Assembly: GCF_003148465.1 (NCBI RefSeq)
Contig: NZ_QGGI01000005.1
Span: 1-64,000 of the forward strand
Length of the DNA: 64,000 nucleotides
Direction of reading: 5' to 3'
Source: Oceanotoga teriensis
Lineage (GTDB): Bacteria > Thermotogota > Thermotogae > Petrotogales > Petrotogaceae
The translations under genes were made by a program, and so were the position numbers. Below the pieces are notes generated by a model that had not been told where the DNA came from, made no database searches, and saw only the letters and a list, made by a program, of their open reading frames with translations. Below, piece by piece: positions 40,471 to 48,720 of the stretch. The stretch's first letter is position 1; each line of letters opens with the position of its first letter.

Positions 40471-41124
40471 TTGAACCTTATAAATTATATATTAATAAAT
40501 TATAATAAAATTTTATTTGAAACATTGCAGCATATGAAACTTATAGCTTTATCTTTACCTTTTTCGATATTAATAGGAGTACCTATAGGCATTTTTATAT
40601 CTAAAAATTCAAAAATAGCCAATATTACTCTTCAAATTGCTGGAATATTGATGACAATTCCTTCATTGGCTTTATTTGGTATAATGGTTGTAATTCTTGC
40701 ACCTATAAAAGCTGGAATAGGGACAACTCCAGCTGTAATTGCTTTAATAATATACTCTTTGATGCCAATAATAAGAAATACATTGATAGGTATTAAATCA
40801 ATAAACATTAAAATAATAGAGTCTGCTAAAGGAATGGGTATGACTTCTTCTCAAATTTTGTTAAAAATAAAGTTACCTTTATCTATACCGATAATAATGT
40901 CTGGAATAAGAAATGCAGTAGTGATGGGAGTTGGAATAGCAACATTGGGATATTTCGTATCTTCTGGAGGACTTGGTTATTTTATATTTGCAGGGTTGAG
41001 TAGATCAAGATATGAAATGGTAATAACAGGAGTTATACTTATTTCTTTTCTTGGAATTATGACAAATTATTTACTCATAAAATTAGAAAATTTAATAACT
41101 TCAAAGGGGTTAAAAATTAAATAA
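40471..41124 (+). CDS. OpuC-like ABC importer permease (first)
   Basis: A 217-residue permease with five to six helices and the coupling EAA loop ESAKGMGMTSSQILLKIKLPLSIPII, typical of the OpuCB/OpuCD (quaternary amine) branch of the binding-protein-dependent permeases. TTG start at 40471 after AAAGGAGGTG. First gene of a tightly packed eight-gene operon running to 46030. There is no fused substrate-binding domain. Annotation as betaine/choline transport would be routine, but the operon partners are cobamide genes, so the substrate is open. Confidence 0.82.
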   Translation: MNLINYILINYNKILFETLQHMKLIALSLPFSILIGVPIGIFISKNSKIANITLQIAGILMTIPSLALFGIMVVILAPIKAGIGTTPAVIALIIYSLMPIIRNTLIGIKSINIKIIESAKGMGMTSSQILLKIKLPLSIPIIMSGIRNAVVMGVGIATLGYFVSSGGLGYFIFAGLSRSRYEMVITGVILISFLGIMTNYLLIKLENLITSKGLKIK

Positions 41125-41136
41125 GAGGTGATTTAT

Positions 41137-42231
41137 TTGTCTATAAAACTAAAAAACATATATAAAAAATATGATGATTTTACAGCAATAGAAAATATTA
41201 ATATAGAGTTTGAAGATCATAAAATAATTGTTTTAATAGGACCTTCCGGTTGTGGTAAAACAACTCTTTTAAAAATTATAAATAAATTAATTGAAAGAAG
41301 TTCAGGCGAAATTTATATAAATAATAATTCAATAGATGATATAGATACTATATCTCTTAGAAGGAGTATTGGTTATGTAATTCAAGAAATAGGACTTTTT
41401 CCACACATGACAGTAAAAGAAAATATTTCTATTGTACCTAAACTTTTAAAATGGCCGAAAAAAAAGATAGAGGATAGGATCAAATATTTGATGGAACTTG
41501 TTAATCTTGATTATGAAATAAATATTAATAAATATCCAGCTCAACTTTCTGGTGGTCAAAGGCAACGTGTAGGTGTTGCAAGAGGTTTGGCTGCAGATCC
41601 AGAAATTTTATTAATGGATGAACCATTTGGTGCTATAGATCCCATAAATAGGGAAACACTTCAAAATGCATTTTTAGAAATTCAAAATAAAATAAAAAAG
41701 ACTATAATATTCGTAACTCATGATATAAGAGAGGCTATTAAACTTGGAGATAAAATAGCTATTTTGAATAAAGGAAAAATAGAACAATATGATAATACGA
41801 TCAATATCATAAAAAGACCAAAAAACTCTTTTGTAAGGAATTTATTGGGAGAAGATAGTGAATTTAAAGCTCTTGAATTTATAAAAGTTTCAGAATCTTT
41901 GAGTCAAAACTATACAGTTCTCAATATAAATAATTACGAAGATCAAGTCTTTAATATGATAAAAAATAACAATTTAAAATTTATTATTTTTAATGATGAA
42001 AATAATAAATTTTCTGGATATCTTGATTTAATGAATAAAGATAAGTTTAATATTGAAAAGATAAAAAAATTAAATGTAAAAAGTGATTTTAGCCTTTTTG
42101 ATTCTTTGAATATAATGTTAAAAGCTGGAGTATCTAAAATTCCTGTTATAAATAATAAAAATGAAATAATTGGTTTACTTGAATTTGAAAGTATTTTTAA
42201 ACATTTTTCTCTTTCAGAGGTGAATAAATGA
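41137..42231 (+). CDS. OpuCA-like ABC ATPase with tandem CBS domains
   Basis: Walker A GPSGCGKTT, signature LSGGQRQRVGVARGLA, Walker B ILLMDEPFGA, switch His FVTHDIREA, then a C-terminal pair of CBS modules (about 255-364), as in OpuCA/ProV-type ATPases where CBS senses ionic strength or nucleotides. TTG at 41137 is preferred (AGAGGTG, 6-nt spacing) over GTG at 41128, which is part of that site. The end overlaps the second permease by 4 nt. It energises both OpuC-like permeases. Confidence 0.88.
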   Translation: MSIKLKNIYKKYDDFTAIENINIEFEDHKIIVLIGPSGCGKTTLLKIINKLIERSSGEIYINNNSIDDIDTISLRRSIGYVIQEIGLFPHMTVKENISIVPKLLKWPKKKIEDRIKYLMELVNLDYEININKYPAQLSGGQRQRVGVARGLAADPEILLMDEPFGAIDPINRETLQNAFLEIQNKIKKTIIFVTHDIREAIKLGDKIAILNKGKIEQYDNTINIIKRPKNSFVRNLLGEDSEFKALEFIKVSESLSQNYTVLNINNYEDQVFNMIKNNNLKFIIFNDENNKFSGYLDLMNKDKFNIEKIKKLNVKSDFSLFDSLNIMLKAGVSKIPVINNKNEIIGLLEFESIFKHFSLSEVNK

Positions 42232-42881
42232 ATATTTTTAAATTTTACAATGAAAACTTAGATTATTTATTTTTAAAAACTTATGAACATCTTTATATTT
42301 TTATTATTTCATGGTTATTAGCTGTTATAATTGGTATATTGATAGGTATTTTTGTAAGCAGACCAAAAAGAAAAAAAACTGGAGAATTAATTATAAACAT
42401 AATGAGTACAACACAAGCAATACCATCAATAGCTGTAATAGCTCTTGTTTTCATATTTTTAGGTATTGGAGCAACTCCTGCAATCTTTGCTTTATTTCTA
42501 TATAGTTTAGTACCTATTATATTCAATACTGCTTCTGGATTATTAAGTGTTGATAAAAAATTGATCGAAGCTGCTAAAGGGATGGGTATGACAAACTTTC
42601 ATATACTTTTTAGAATAGAAATACCAATGTCAATTTCATCAATATTTTCTGGTCTTAGAAATTCAGCTGTGATAAATATTGCAACAACAACAGTAGCTTC
42701 AGCAGTTGGAGCTGGAGGACTTGGAGAATTAATTTTCATAGGTTTAAGTGCTTTTGATTATACAATGATATTAGCTGGCGCTTTACCTGTTTCTTTGCTT
42801 GCAGTAATTATAGATCAGATTTTAGGTCTAATAGAAAAATTTTTAACTTCTAAAGGAATCAAAATGATAACAGAAAATTAG
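42228..42881 (+). CDS. OpuC-like ABC importer permease (second)
   Basis: Paralogue of the first permease (217 residues) with EAAKGMGMTNFHILFRIEIPMSISS and the conserved GAGGLGELIFIGL end found in OpuCD. It completes a permease-ATPase-permease transporter, but the usual OpuCC substrate-binding lipoprotein gene is missing between or after them. The stop (TAG) is followed 2 nt later by the ribosome binding site of the AIR-synthase-like gene, so the cobamide genes are physically coupled to it. Confidence 0.82.
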   Translation: MNIFKFYNENLDYLFLKTYEHLYIFIISWLLAVIIGILIGIFVSRPKRKKTGELIINIMSTTQAIPSIAVIALVFIFLGIGATPAIFALFLYSLVPIIFNTASGLLSVDKKLIEAAKGMGMTNFHILFRIEIPMSISSIFSGLRNSAVINIATTTVASAVGAGGLGELIFIGLSAFDYTMILAGALPVSLLAVIIDQILGLIEKFLTSKGIKMITEN

Positions 42882-42893
42882 GAGGCGATATAC

Positions 42894-43634
42894 ATAAAAA
42901 TAATAAATACTTATAGAGATACTACTATTTATAAATTTAAAGATATTTATCAGGTTATAGCTTTAGATACTCTTGGTTCAATTGGTGAAAAAAAAAATGA
43001 TGAATTATCTTTTAATGTTGTAGATTCGGCTATGTTCACTTTAAATGTTTGTTTAAATGAATTATATAGTTTAAATGTAAAACCATTAACAGTGCTTTCT
43101 ATGGTTAGTAATGAATGGAATCCAACAGGAATGAATGTATTAAAAGGTATTAAAAAAGGTCTTTCAAAGTTAGAATTAGACATTCCTATTAATGGAAGTA
43201 CAGAAGAAAACTTTAAAACTTCAATGACTGCTTATGGTATGGCTGTTTTTGGATATACAGAAAATATTATATGGAGAAATTCAAAAGAAAATGATCATAT
43301 ATATTTGATAGGTATTCCATATGTAGGTGAAGAAGTTATCAAAAATCAAAATAATATTTTAAATCCTAAAATAATAGCTCAAATAATTAAAGAAAATCCA
43401 ATAGGAGATTTTCTTCCCTGTGGTTCGGGTGGCATATATAAGGAACTCGAAATTTTATCAAAAGAAAATGAATTAAAATATATTTTATTCGATGATATAA
43501 TAGAAAATAAAAATATCAATATAAAAAAATCTGCAGGCCCAGCAACCTGCGGAATTTTTACTTCTAAAAAAGAAATAAAAAGAAATGATATACCTTTATT
43601 CGAAATAGGGAGGATTAAAAAATGTATACATTGA
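42894..43634 (+). CDS. AIR-synthase-like kinase, candidate alpha-ribazole kinase (CblS-like)
   Basis: About 246 residues of the PurM/ThiL/HypE ATP-binding fold: ALDTLGSIGEKKND (metal/ATP strand), SMVSNEWNPTG, INGSTEENFKTSMTAYGMAVFG, IPYVGEEV, DFLPCGSGG, and KSAGPATC. CblS proteins, which phosphorylate alpha-ribazole in bacteria lacking CobT, belong to this fold, and the genes after it are cobU, a CbiR-like gene and cobS, so that role fits. No ATG, GTG or TTG exists in frame before 43032, which would cut off 46 conserved residues. GGAGG (42881-42885) points instead to an ATA start near 42894, 8 nt away. Confidence 0.65.
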   Translation: MKIINTYRDTTIYKFKDIYQVIALDTLGSIGEKKNDELSFNVVDSAMFTLNVCLNELYSLNVKPLTVLSMVSNEWNPTGMNVLKGIKKGLSKLELDIPINGSTEENFKTSMTAYGMAVFGYTENIIWRNSKENDHIYLIGIPYVGEEVIKNQNNILNPKIIAQIIKENPIGDFLPCGSGGIYKELEILSKENELKYILFDDIIENKNINIKKSAGPATCGIFTSKKEIKRNDIPLFEIGRIKKCIH

Positions 43635-44146
43635 TAACTGGAGGACAGGCATGTGGTAAATCAACTTATGCCCAAATTCTTGCCGAAAAAGAAAAACCAA
43701 ACAGAGTTTATATAGCTACTGCTCAAATATTTGATGAGGAGATGAGAATAAAAGTAGATAATCATATAAAAGAAAGAGGAGAAAATTTCTTTACAGTAGA
43801 AGAACCCTTTAATCCTATTGATGCTTTTAAAAAGGCTTTAACTTATAATCCCAATGTTATTTTAATGGATTGTATTACAATGTGGACATCTAATTTACTT
43901 TTAAAACATGAAAAAGATGATGATTATATAATCTTTGAAAAAGTAGATAAATTTATAGATTTTCTTAAAAAGAATGATATACCTAAAACTATTTTTGTTA
44001 CAAATGAAGTAGGTTGGGGAATAATCCCTGAAAATACCTTAGCAAGAAGATATGTAAGAATATTGGGCACTGTAAATAAAAAATTTGCAAAATTATGTGA
44101 TAATGTATTTTTAATGGTTTCAGGAATAGAGGTGAAAATAAAATGA
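43622..44146 (+). CDS. cobU: Adenosylcobinamide kinase / guanylyltransferase
   Basis: The 174-residue bifunctional CobU: Walker A GGQACGKST, YIATAQIFDEEM, DCITMWTSNLL, and TNEVGWGIIPENTLARRYVRILGTVN. It phosphorylates adenosylcobinamide and transfers GMP to give AdoCbi-GDP. It overlaps the previous gene by 13 nt and the next by 4 nt, indicating coupled translation in a cobamide loop-assembly operon. Confidence 0.93.
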   Translation: MYTLITGGQACGKSTYAQILAEKEKPNRVYIATAQIFDEEMRIKVDNHIKERGENFFTVEEPFNPIDAFKKALTYNPNVILMDCITMWTSNLLLKHEKDDDYIIFEKVDKFIDFLKKNDIPKTIFVTNEVGWGIIPENTLARRYVRILGTVNKKFAKLCDNVFLMVSGIEVKIK

Positions 44147-44799
44147 TAGTAGGAACAACTTCATGGCAAATACCTGGAACATATCTTGAAAATTTAAAAA
44201 TATTAAAAGATGAAGTAGATTTTGTAGAATTATTAATATATTCATGGGATGAACATATTCAATCTATAATAAAAAAAGAATCCGAAGAACTTTTTAACTC
44301 TGACATAAAACTCAGCATTCATCTCCCAACAGATAATATGAAAAGCATTAGAAATGTTTGTTCTTATTTTAAAGATTTTAATGTTTATAGACTAACAATG
44401 CATCCATTTGGAGAAATAGAGGAATTTAAAGATACCTTCAGATATTGTCAGGATATTTTTAAAAAAAGATTATGTGTTGAAAATTTAGAAGATGGAAAGT
44501 TCTTCGAATATTATAATAAAATAAAAGAATATAATCCTTCTATAACAATGGACTGGGGACATTTAACTCTACTCGGAGAGAATCCTGAATATTTTATAAG
44601 TCGTGTTAAAAGTAAAATAAAAGAAATACATTTTCATGGCATTCAAAATGGCAAAGATCATTCTTTACCAACGAAAGAACAGTATAAAAGCTTTATAAAA
44701 ACTTATAAAAAATATTTTAAAGATACTCCTGTATGTGTAGAATTATTTAAACTTGAAGAGACATTACAAGTAGTAGAGGTATTAAAAAATGCTAAATGA
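44143..44799 (+). CDS. CbiR-like TIM-barrel hydrolase (cobamide remodelling candidate)
   Basis: 218 residues of the AP-endonuclease-2 / xylose-isomerase-like TIM barrel. Metal ligands lie at expected strands: LSIHLPTD, TMHPFGE, CVENLE, TMDWGHL, EIHFHG, and a final VELF. CbiR, described in Akkermansia, belongs to this superfamily and opens the nucleotide loop of cobamides so that the lower ligand can be replaced. Placement between cobU and cobS, overlapping both, supports that role, but other sugar-isomerase-like functions are possible. Confidence 0.65.
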   Translation: MIVGTTSWQIPGTYLENLKILKDEVDFVELLIYSWDEHIQSIIKKESEELFNSDIKLSIHLPTDNMKSIRNVCSYFKDFNVYRLTMHPFGEIEEFKDTFRYCQDIFKKRLCVENLEDGKFFEYYNKIKEYNPSITMDWGHLTLLGENPEYFISRVKSKIKEIHFHGIQNGKDHSLPTKEQYKSFIKTYKKYFKDTPVCVELFKLEETLQVVEVLKNAK

Positions 44800-45496
44800 T
44801 ATATTTGTAGCTTTTGGTACTATTAGTAGAATTCCGGTCCCAACTGTAAAAAATGTAAATATTAAAAGGTCTGTAATTTATTTTCCATTGGTAGGAATAT
44901 TTGCAAGTTTTGTTTTGTGGTTATTTCAAATGATTTTCATCAATATATTCAATATAAATATAACCTTTATATTGAATATGATTTTATATTTCTATCTTTT
45001 TCAATACTTTCATTTTGATGGTATTTTAGATTTATTCGATGGATTTGGTGCTCAAATAAGAGATATTGAAGAAAGACGAAAAATACTTAAAGATTCAAGG
45101 ATTGGAGCTTTTTCTTTATTATATGGGATTTTTTATATAATATTATATATTTTTTTAATATTTCAAAATAAAGACTTTTGGTATATGATGCCAATTTTTT
45201 CAAGATTTTCTGTACCAGTTTTGTTATCTATCTCAAAACCAGCATTTGATGAAGGACTTGGAAAAATGTATTTTCCATTCAAAAAATTATATTTAATTCC
45301 TTCATTCTTAATAGTTTCAATAACAGCCTTTATCTCTTTGAAAATCTTTTTAATCGGTATCATATCTTCTATAATAAGTTCTTTTTTATTAAATATTATA
45401 TCGAATAAAAAAATCAATGGTATAAATGGTGATGTAATAGGAGCTAATATATGTTTAACTGAAATAATATTTCTTTTGATTATAAATATAAAATAA
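44789..45496 (+). CDS. cobS: Adenosylcobinamide-GDP ribazoletransferase (cobalamin synthase)
   Basis: The 235-residue membrane enzyme joins AdoCbi-GDP with alpha-ribazole (phosphate). CobS motifs are FGTISRIPVPT, YFHFDGILDLFDGFGAQ, ILKDSRIGAFSLLYG, and near the end INGDVIGANICLTEI. Six or so helices. It overlaps the CbiR-like gene by 11 nt. No corrin-ring genes are in the window, so the operon serves salvage or remodelling rather than de novo synthesis here. Confidence 0.93.
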   Translation: MLNDIFVAFGTISRIPVPTVKNVNIKRSVIYFPLVGIFASFVLWLFQMIFINIFNINITFILNMILYFYLFQYFHFDGILDLFDGFGAQIRDIEERRKILKDSRIGAFSLLYGIFYIILYIFLIFQNKDFWYMMPIFSRFSVPVLLSISKPAFDEGLGKMYFPFKKLYLIPSFLIVSITAFISLKIFLIGIISSIISSFLLNIISNKKINGINGDVIGANICLTEIIFLLIINIK

Positions 45497-45508: not shown

Positions 45509-46030
45509 ATGATAATATTGGTAGGTTCAAAAAACCCAGTTAAAATAAATGCTTGTAACTTAGCTTTTAAAGAGTATTTTGAAGACTTTGAACTGAAAAG
45601 TTATGATATAGATTCTAAAGTTTCAGCCCAACCTTTAGAAGAAGAAACCTTTAAAGGGGCTTATAATAGAGCTTCACAACTAAAACAAAATTTTTTAGAT
45701 GGTGACTTTTTCATTGGTATAGAAGCTGGAATAAAAATAATGTTCAATAAACCTTTTTTATTCACCGTAGTTCATACAATAAATAAATTTGGAAAAGAAG
45801 GAATAGGAATATCCCCAATATATCAACTTCCAACTTTTATAATGAAAGACATAAAAAAAGGTGCTGAACTTGGAGATATAATGGAAGAAATTTCAAAAAT
45901 TGAAAATATAAAACAAAAGGGTGGTGCTATTGAATTTTTTTCAAAGGGGATTTTAACAAGGACTAAAATATACATACCTGCAATAATAAGTTCTTTGATA
46001 CCTATATTAAATGCCGATATATATCAATAA
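45509..46030 (+). CDS. Non-canonical NTP phosphatase, DUF84/YjjX family
   Basis: A 173-residue protein with the Maf/HAM1-like strand VGSKNPVKINACNLAF, then GAYNRASQLK, FFIGIEAGI, and GGAIEFFSKGILTRT, which match inosine/xanthosine triphosphatases of the YjjX type. AGGAG before ATG. Last gene of the transporter-cobamide operon. Its link to cobamides is unclear: it may clean up purine NTPs or simply be carried along. Confidence 0.82.
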   Translation: MIILVGSKNPVKINACNLAFKEYFEDFELKSYDIDSKVSAQPLEEETFKGAYNRASQLKQNFLDGDFFIGIEAGIKIMFNKPFLFTVVHTINKFGKEGIGISPIYQLPTFIMKDIKKGAELGDIMEEISKIENIKQKGGAIEFFSKGILTRTKIYIPAIISSLIPILNADIYQ

Positions 46031-46031
46031 A

Positions 46032-46055
46032 AAAAGGGGTTAATTAACCCCTTTT
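46032..46055. terminator. Shared bidirectional terminator
   Basis: aaaaggggttaa / ttaacccctttt, a perfect 24-base palindrome between two convergent genes. It begins right after one stop codon and overlaps the other. Confidence 0.9.
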
Positions 46056-47333: not shown

Positions 47334-47948
47334 TTAAATTAATGTTTTTATATTTTCAACAATATCATTAACAAGTTTAGGTTTTTCAATTATATCAAAT
47401 TCATTTCCATCAACTATATAAATAGGTGATTGATCATAATCATTTATCCAATTATTATATAAATCATTTAATTGTTCCCAATATTCAATTGGTGTCTGAA
47501 TCTCCATTTGTCTACCACGTTTATTTATACGTTTTAAAATTGTTTTTACATCTGTTTTTATGTAAATTAGTAGATCTGGTTTCTTTAAATATTGCAACAT
47601 AGTATCAAATATTTGCTTATATGAATCATATTCGGGTTTGCTCATTTTATTGTTCATATAGAGATTTTTTGCAAATATTTCAGAGTCTTCATAAATAGAT
47701 CTATCGAGTACAGCATTAACTTCTTTATCTATTATATCTTTTATACTTTTAAATCTATGAAATAAAAAATATGTTTGTAAATGATATGACCATCTTTTTT
47801 GATTATAATAAAAATCTTCAAGAAATGGATTATCCACAACAGATTCATAATATGGTTTAAATTCTATTTTATTGGAAATTATATTTGTAAATGTAGATTT
47901 TCCTGCACCTACATTTCCAGCAAAGACGATCATTTTATTTTTTTTCAT
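47334..47948 (-). CDS. Deoxynucleoside kinase (dAK/dCK-like)
   Basis: Phosphorylates deoxynucleosides for salvage. P-loop GNVGAGKST (11-19), substrate-binding ESVVDNPFLEDFY, the ERS/DRS motif VLDRSIYEDSEIFAKN, and the LID region RINKRGRQME. 204 residues, similar to the Bacillus Dck. It overlaps its paralogue by 14 nt, and together they probably cover complementary bases (inference). Confidence 0.87.
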   Translation of the reverse strand: MKKNKMIVFAGNVGAGKSTFTNIISNKIEFKPYYESVVDNPFLEDFYYNQKRWSYHLQTYFLFHRFKSIKDIIDKEVNAVLDRSIYEDSEIFAKNLYMNNKMSKPEYDSYKQIFDTMLQYLKKPDLLIYIKTDVKTILKRINKRGRQMEIQTPIEYWEQLNDLYNNWINDYDQSPIYIVDGNEFDIIEKPKLVNDIVENIKTLI

Positions 47949-48531
47949 CTATTTTCACCTCTATTATTTTTATAAGTCTTTCAAAATCTTCATTATTAAA
48001 AACATCAAATTTATCTCCATCCAAAATTATACAGTTTTTAATTTTTTTAAAAGTTTTTTTATAAGCTTCATCGACTTTTTTTAAATATTCAATATCTATT
48101 TTATTTTCAAACTCTCTTTTTCTGCTTTTTATTCTTTTAACAACTGTTTCAACAGAAGTGTCTATATATATTATTAAATCTGATTTTTCAAGATTTTCTG
48201 TGAGAATATCATATATTTTATAAAATTTTAATTTTTCTATTTCATTTTTTATAGTGATATTTGAAAAAATTTTATTTTTAATCATATCATAATCACTTAT
48301 AATTAAAGAACTTTCTGACATGGAATTATATTGTTTATATCTGGATACAAGAAAAAACATTTCAGTTTGAAATCCAACATCTTCATTTCTATATAATAAA
48401 GGTAAATAAGGATTATTTTCAAACTCTTCTAATATCAATTCATCTGCTTTAAATTCTTTAAATAGAGCATTTGCTAATGTTGTTTTTCCACTACCTATAT
48501 TTCCTTCTATATTTATTCTTATTTTATTCAT
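47935..48531 (-). CDS. Deoxynucleoside kinase (dGK-like)
   Basis: Paralogue of the next gene: P-loop GNIGSGKTT, EEFENNPYLPLLY, SDYDMIKNKIFS in place of the DRS box, and RIKSRKREFE as LID. The divergent DYD box resembles deoxyguanosine kinases. ATG at 48531 has TAGGAGTG upstream; the longer frame to 48558 lacks a ribosome binding site. Promoter presumably in 48532-48700, where nothing distinct is visible. Confidence 0.84.
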   Translation of the reverse strand: MNKIRINIEGNIGSGKTTLANALFKEFKADELILEEFENNPYLPLLYRNEDVGFQTEMFFLVSRYKQYNSMSESSLIISDYDMIKNKIFSNITIKNEIEKLKFYKIYDILTENLEKSDLIIYIDTSVETVVKRIKSRKREFENKIDIEYLKKVDEAYKKTFKKIKNCIILDGDKFDVFNNEDFERLIKIIEVKIDEKK

Positions 48532-48720
48532 AAGAATCACTCCTAAGTATTTTCTCAATATATTGTACCATAATACATTTTTTTGTCAATAAACATACAA
48601 CAAATATTTATAATACCCCGTAATAGTATTTTTATTTTTTATTATCTGAAAATACAAAATAATATGTTAAAATTTAAATGTATTTATTATTAAAAAATTA
48701 ATTAAATGGAGGAGATAAAT

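Follow-up and report, generated by a model that had tools for sequence, protein, structure and literature searches.

How might a bacterium that lacks CobT complete, or rebuild, the nucleotide loop of its cobamides? This question is raised by a locus of Oceanotoga teriensis, a heat-loving bacterium of the Thermotogota, in the 64,000-nucleotide stretch that we analyzed (positions 1 to 64,000 of contig NZ_QGGI01000005.1; hereafter the window). Positions 42894-45496 carry four overlapping open reading frames (ORFs) on the + strand, in the order gene 1 (cblS), cobU, cbiR and cobS, with overlaps of 13 bases between gene 1 and cobU, 4 bases between cobU and cbiR and 11 bases between cbiR and cobS. 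A preliminary description of this DNA had presented the four as a putative complete cobamide-remodeling cassette. The overlapping ORFs were confirmed, and profile, homology and fold evidence upheld the identities CblS, CobU, CbiR and CobS. We consider it likely that they form a nucleotide-loop assembly and remodeling operon in which CblS takes the place of CobT.

By homology, gene 1 is assigned to CblS. Its product shares 28.8% identity (blastp, E 8e-27) with the ORF ahead of cobU-cobS-cobC in Listeria monocytogenes, which is annotated as hypothetical and which we take, from its locus, to belong to the same family as the characterized CblS of L. innocua. Identity to the CblS ORF of plasmid pMF1298-5 is 33% (E 1e-36), and the operon of that plasmid is given as CblT, CblS, CobS and CobC in the relevant passage of PMC6722938. 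The genomic company of the gene 1 family is cobU/cobS and CblT, with no CobT; in this genome CblT is unlinked. An AlphaFold model of gene 1 (predicted local distance difference test, pLDDT, 93.7; predicted template modeling score, pTM, 0.92) matches structures of the PurM superfamily over its full length. The top Foldseek match is the kinase ThiL (E 2e-15), and VIA-align returns matches at Z 18-20, among which SelD, HypE and ThiL are not separable (Z about 19-20). Seven of the 17 family members scanned match PF00586 (AIRS; best E 3.8e-10), the window protein not being among them. Gene 1 as ThiL or SelD was rejected: at E up to 1, the NCBIfam thiL and selD models found 3/17 and 1/17 family members, respectively, and neither matched the window protein. 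Two matches were disregarded as chance: gene 1 with a tail tube protein (E 0.008), and the family profile with HTL receptors of plants (E 0.4).

CobU matches PF02283 with 173.2 bits (cut-off 27) and falls 0.8 bit short of the NF004469 cut-off (160.2 vs. 161), and CobS matches PF02654 with 146.8 bits (cut-off 23.2) and scores 97.8 bits with TIGR00317 (cut-off 110). The third gene, cbiR, lies on the same strand as cobU and cobS and overlaps both. Two checks proposed in the preliminary description, a profile search and a structure prediction, agree on its identity. The NCBIfam equivalog model NF041277 gives 155.9 bits, about 50 bits above its cut-off of 105, and the AlphaFold2 model (pLDDT 95.2) is a triose-phosphate isomerase (TIM) barrel with structural matches to UlaE and endonuclease IV. 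Residues H60, H87, E113, D137, H140, H163, H173 and E200 are invariant in 8/8 Thermotogota CbiR sequences. A plain sugar isomerase was rejected for this gene, given NF041277 above cut-off and only 19.7 bits with PF01261. Best matches to ThiL or sugar isomerases, which the preliminary description had said would speak against it, were thus not borne out by the NCBIfam and Pfam scans.

Gene content beyond the cassette alters the earlier picture. No neighbor of the four genes is a cobT, cobC or corrin gene, and the absence of CobT, previously noted at the locus, extends to the whole genome (PF02277, 0 matches; completeness 99.86%). The earlier statement that corrin-ring genes are lacking holds at the locus but not in the genome, where a riboswitch-led operon on another contig (from G000:C1:232588) encodes CbiC, CbiD, CbiE, CbiF, CbiG, CbiH and CbiJ (the last by eye), then CbiA, CbiP, CbiB and a protein resembling CobD; an adenosyltransferase gene lies just upstream. 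The genome's CbiD scores 243.6 bits, and nine further cbi/cob-family proteins were found. With these genes the organism does not answer to a cobinamide salvager without corrin synthesis; CobU and CobS must therefore also finish home-made rings, and the cassette is, on gene content, a nucleotide-loop module in a cell that also has genes for making the ring, not a pure scavenger cassette. CblT is present at an unlinked position (G000:C2:31767-32231, E 1.8e-57). The genome has five riboswitches: two are at btu-like loci, and the others at the corrin operon, at a cbiMNQO-like set and at a locus with a YitT-like gene downstream (names by eye). There are six matches to B12-binding domains, and the organism therefore probably uses cobamides.

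In Akkermansia muciniphila, CbiR cuts the phosphoribosyl bond of a cobamide to yield adenosylcobinamide phosphate (AdoCbi-P) and alpha-ribazole, according to the pertinent passages of PMC7733943. By analogy, CbiR would here cut a scavenged cobamide into the same two products. Judging from the protein families, CblS would phosphorylate alpha-ribazole, whether freed by CbiR or brought in through the unlinked CblT; CobU would convert AdoCbi-P, supplied by CbiR or by endogenous corrin synthesis, to AdoCbi-GDP; and CobS would join the two activated halves. Some phosphatase would then take off the last phosphate. The cut-and-rejoin logic of the preliminary description is supported, and its suggestion that lower ligands could be exchanged is narrowed. 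Since the genome has no CobT, a free base could not be activated by the CobT route, and only ready-made alpha-ribazole would enter, via CblT or CbiR, limited to ligands accepted by CblS and CobS. The installable ligands would be only the alpha-ribazoles that CblS accepts, and CblS, if selective, would be the ligand filter. A passage of PMC6167548, citing Mattes 2017, states that Geobacillus CblS prefers ribazole over adenine, and also reports a Lactobacillus result that its authors find contrary to that preference. We think it unlikely that the operon goes as far as a closed cut-and-rejoin cycle, in which CbiR would make any captured cobamide a lower-ligand donor, CblS would select among the freed nucleosides, and CobU and CobS would attach the accepted one to a scavenged or home-made ring. 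If this were true, the lower ligand would be chosen when CblS phosphorylates the nucleoside instead of when CobT activates the base, and corrinoids with an unusable ring could serve the cell as ligand sources.

We then surveyed CobS, CobT and the gene 1 family across the same 103 Thermotogota genomes, finding CobS in 42, CobT in 24 and CblS in 19. All 42 CobS genomes carry CobT or CblS, and every CobT or CblS genome carries CobS. Independence would predict 10.9 genomes with both CobT and CblS, vs. 1 seen (hypergeometric p 5e-11, ignoring shared ancestry); at genus level CobT occurs in 11/19 and CblS in 9/19, with one shared. Strong CblT matches occur in 12/103 genomes, each of which has CblS; in nine others the matches are weak only. 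Gene order is cobT-cobU-cbiR-cobS in three relatives (L150 in G068, L151 in G019, L152 in G054), cblT-cblS-cobU-cbiR-cobS in two (L022 in G052, L023 in G038) and cblS-cobU-cbiR-cobS in the window. The preliminary description had counted cobT next to these genes in related genomes as evidence against its reading. Relatives with cobT before cobU-cbiR-cobS do exist, but they argue for the assignment of gene 1, not against it. On gene order and content, CblS occupies the place of CobT in the operon and probably replaces it in this lineage.

Phylogenies suggest how this arrangement arose. The CobS of this lineage falls within a clade of CobS from CobT operons (22 rows; Shimodaira-Hasegawa-like approximate likelihood ratio test, SH-aLRT, 100; rows of 180 residues or fewer left out), and its CblS stands beside that of Thermoanaerobacteraceae (SH-aLRT 90; L039, L116, L122 and rows shorter than 200 residues left out). 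Because of these placements, we suggest that this lineage probably gained a foreign first gene, cblS, and retained the native cobU-cbiR-cobS. CobS and CblS of Marinitoga are both placed among Clostridia, and that genus probably acquired a whole cobUSC-cblS block. In approximately unbiased (AU) tests, p was 0.042 for all Thermotogota CblS as a single clade, 0.04 for the CblS of this lineage joined with Marinitoga and 0.415, not rejected, for its joining with family f7. A single CblS origin in the phylum is thus weakly rejected (AU p 0.04), and the evidence for multiple origins is weak.

The 5' end of gene 1 is unusual. Its frame is open from 42882, and the first ATG, GTG or TTG comes only at codon 47 (43032); an AGGAGG motif sits 8 bases upstream of an ATA codon at 42894. 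Relatives share conserved residues upstream of the first ATG, of which R8, D9, D25, G31 and D36 are invariant, in an alignment that omitted the broken copy of G041 as well as L029, which is nearly identical to L027. The Marinitoga-group cblS genes L026, L027 and L029, and the broken L039/L116 copy of Marinitoga lauensis, have no standard start after GGAGGTG. The landmark of the start-codon scan was off in at least L049, L107, L110, L114 and L119, and only Thermotogota cases read by eye were used. From these sequences, gene 1 seems to start at a genuine AUA/AUU-type codon. The window gene and four of the Marinitoga group (L026, L027, L029, L039) have an apparent ATA, ATT or ATC start after a strong Shine-Dalgarno sequence, and their sister genes start with ATG. 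In M. lauensis (L039/L116), the cblS and cobC-like matches each lie in pieces on one contig, as pseudogenes or sequencing errors.

Several points weigh against a CblS-based remodeling operon. The activities of all four proteins are predicted. The gene 1 product matches no Pfam family, no CblS model in the Pfam and NCBIfam copies used catches it or the reference CblS proteins, and its identity to named CblS proteins is just 29-33%. CobS and CobU fall below some NCBIfam cut-offs, and CblT is unlinked to the cassette. One genome, G052, has both CobT and CblS, the sole overlap among the 103, and the phyletic p-value takes no account of common descent. Cutting and rejoining the same ligand would bring no net gain, because each rejoining consumes one alpha-ribazole, and a second ligand source is needed; any gain would have to come from imported alpha-ribazole, from unusable rings or from coupling to uptake. 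Nor can the cassette be called complete, as there is no CobC in the operon. The better of two His-phosphatases fetched from the genome reaches 146.5 bits vs. the TIGR03162 (CobC) cut-off of 162.9, other phosphatase families not having been searched; a phosphoserine phosphatase model gives it a higher score, and the other is a phosphoglycerate mutase. No enzyme is therefore assigned to removal of the last phosphate, and the substrate of CblS and the net benefit of remodeling are predictions.

These points leave room for other explanations. CblT/CblS and CobU/CobS might simply use imported alpha-ribazole to complete cobinamide, both home-made and salvaged; CbiR would then be a leftover from the ancestral cobT-cobU-cbiR-cobS operon that has ceased to matter. 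The corrin operon, the presence of CblT and the 13/19 CblS genomes of the phylum without CbiR above cut-off favor such plain assembly. However, the conserved His, Asp and Glu of CbiR are kept in 8/8 sequences, its score is well above cut-off, and cbiR overlaps both neighbors in G000, G038 and G052, with the same two genes flanking it in G007, so we judge a relic improbable. It is also quite unlikely, in our assessment, that gene 1 acts on another nucleoside (e.g., alpha-adenosine) or on a small molecule of the ThiL/HypE/SelD type, with a different cobamide product or a different role as the result. The failure of the fold comparison to separate those three proteins would allow it, as would the pseudo-B12 reported, in a passage of PMC6167548, from a strain that has cblTS but lacks cobT; constant linkage to cobU, cobS and cblT and exact complementarity with CobT run counter to it.

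The last phosphate suggests a further possibility. A His-phosphatase adjoins CobS in 8/42 CobS genomes (G018, G039, G041-G046) and CbiR is above cut-off in 26/42, the two never occurring together among the matches listed; by the same matches 8/42 have neither, including G056, where a CbiR match of 101.5 lies next to CobS. G077-G080 possess CobS, CobT and CbiR with no His_Phos_1 match among those listed, a last assembly step without an obvious enzyme. Both patterns would fit CbiR, or a generic phosphatase, supplying the CobC step in CbiR operons, which would make CbiR partly biosynthetic. Yet the split tracks the two operon lineages of the CobS tree, and so reflects few independent events; the phosphatase search covered the His-phosphatase family alone; and the known CbiR reaction, as passages of PMC7733943 present it, hits another bond. 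We see very little chance of this explanation being correct, and retain assembly plus remodeling with CblS in place of CobT.

The transcription unit seems longer than four genes, since the last of three ATP-binding cassette (ABC) transporter genes ends 12 bases upstream of gene 1 and a DUF84 gene follows cobS; it would comprise the ABC set, the cassette and the DUF84 gene, up to a terminator-like hairpin (Table 1). The first permease is probably on the same transcript. The permease-ATPase-permease set (40471-42881) is of ProW/ProV type and lies directly 5' of cblS, with no binding-protein gene recognized beside it; the L022 and L023 loci give no match to it with an E of 1e-20 or lower. As a substitute for CblT it is not needed, CblT being encoded elsewhere in the genome. 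In the L022 and L023 loci (G052 and G038) the operon has no DUF84 homolog nearby; the gene was rejected as the absent CobC, and its place beside cobS is probably incidental. Riboswitch control of the cassette was rejected, as there is no riboswitch in the 64-kb window. A promoter scan (54 found vs. 45.8 expected) was uninformative, and ten window proteins away from the locus showed no B12 connection when scanned. Two neighboring deoxynucleoside-kinase-like ORFs, named by eye from their translations, lie on the - strand at 47334-48558.

Table 1. Features in and around the predicted cobamide operon, in window coordinates.
Feature	Position	Strand	Evidence
ABC permease, ProW/choline type	40471..41124	+	PF00528 73.2 bits; top NCBIfam match is ProW, under its cut-off
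ProV-family ABC ATPase carrying a CBS domain	41128..42231	+	PF00005, PF00571; TIGR01186 296.7 bits vs. cut-off 326.6
Second ABC permease	42228..42881	+	PF00528 99.9 bits; occupies the cblT position of two close relatives (L022/L023 gene order)
Shine-Dalgarno-like AGGAGG	42880..42885	+	sequence; precedes ATA of gene 1
cblS, predicted alpha-ribazole kinase, PurM/ThiL fold, apparent non-standard ATA start	42894..43634	+	homology, fold, model
cobU, adenosylcobinamide kinase / AdoCbi-P guanylyltransferase	43622..44146	+	PF02283, NF004469
cbiR, cobamide-remodeling phosphodiesterase	44143..44799	+	NF041277, invariant H/D/E, TIM barrel
cobS, adenosylcobinamide-GDP ribazoletransferase	44789..45496	+	PF02654, TIGR00317, CobS tree
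DUF84 / inosine-xanthosine triphosphatase-like gene	45509..46030	+	PF01931 161.4 bits; TIGR00258 138.8 bits vs. cut-off 117.1
Bidirectional terminator-like hairpin, would close the unit	46032..46055	.	sequence scan

CbiR is described, in the relevant passages of PMC7733943, from a bacterium that has CobT. CbiR alongside CobT leaves the fate of the released alpha-ribazole open, and a predicted alpha-ribazole kinase as first gene of a CbiR operon would give that product a use. The near-perfect exclusion of CblS and CobT across the phylum lends strong support, on genomic grounds, to CblS as a direct substitute for CobT, and the absence of cobT should not be taken as an inability to finish cobamides.

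As far as our searches reach, the enzymes are known and the combination is new. CbiR is above cut-off in 6/19 CblS genomes of the phylum (G000, G007, G013, G017, G038, G052), with CbiR and CblS on different contigs in G017. Through other loci, we examined 80 of 117 CblS places and checked 50 of the 80, taken in order, genome-wide. No paper in the literature searched has CbiR and CblS together as whole words; Swithers 2012, on B12 transfer into Thermotogales (cited in PMC8123684), may describe some of the operons.

Salvage of alpha-ribazole by CblT/CblS in Listeria innocua and Geobacillus was reportedly described in Gray 2010 and Mattes 2017, which we know through passages citing them. From such passages, these systems are alike in having CblS with cobU and cobS, a CblT transporter and no reported CobT. 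The L. monocytogenes locus differs in having cobC and no annotated CbiR, whereas the window has CbiR within the operon, which could make alpha-ribazole in the cell. The cblT-cblS and cobUSC loci of Clostridia share CblS, CblT, CobU and CobS, but the fetched DNA of the 80 loci gave no CbiR match (0/80) and none of the 50 genomes one above cut-off (0/50). Several have a nearby match to a CbiZ-fusion query, the ABC part of which may cause some of these matches. In Cytobacillus spongiae (L131:529-1998), an annotated adenosylcobinamide amidohydrolase with an ABC ATPase-like N-terminal part stands in a row with cobU, cobS, an adenosyltransferase gene, cblT and cblS. The CbiR locus of A. muciniphila, in the parts of PMC7733943 that describe it, is alike in placing CbiR near cobS and cobU, with cutting at the phosphoribosyl bond and subsequent rebuilding; it differs in having cobT for the free base, where our organism lacks CobT genome-wide and has CblS instead. 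The cobT-cobU-cbiR-cobS operons of other Thermotogota (G068, G019, G054) share the last three genes, their order and the CobS clade with the window, and differ in that the first gene is cobT and not cblS.

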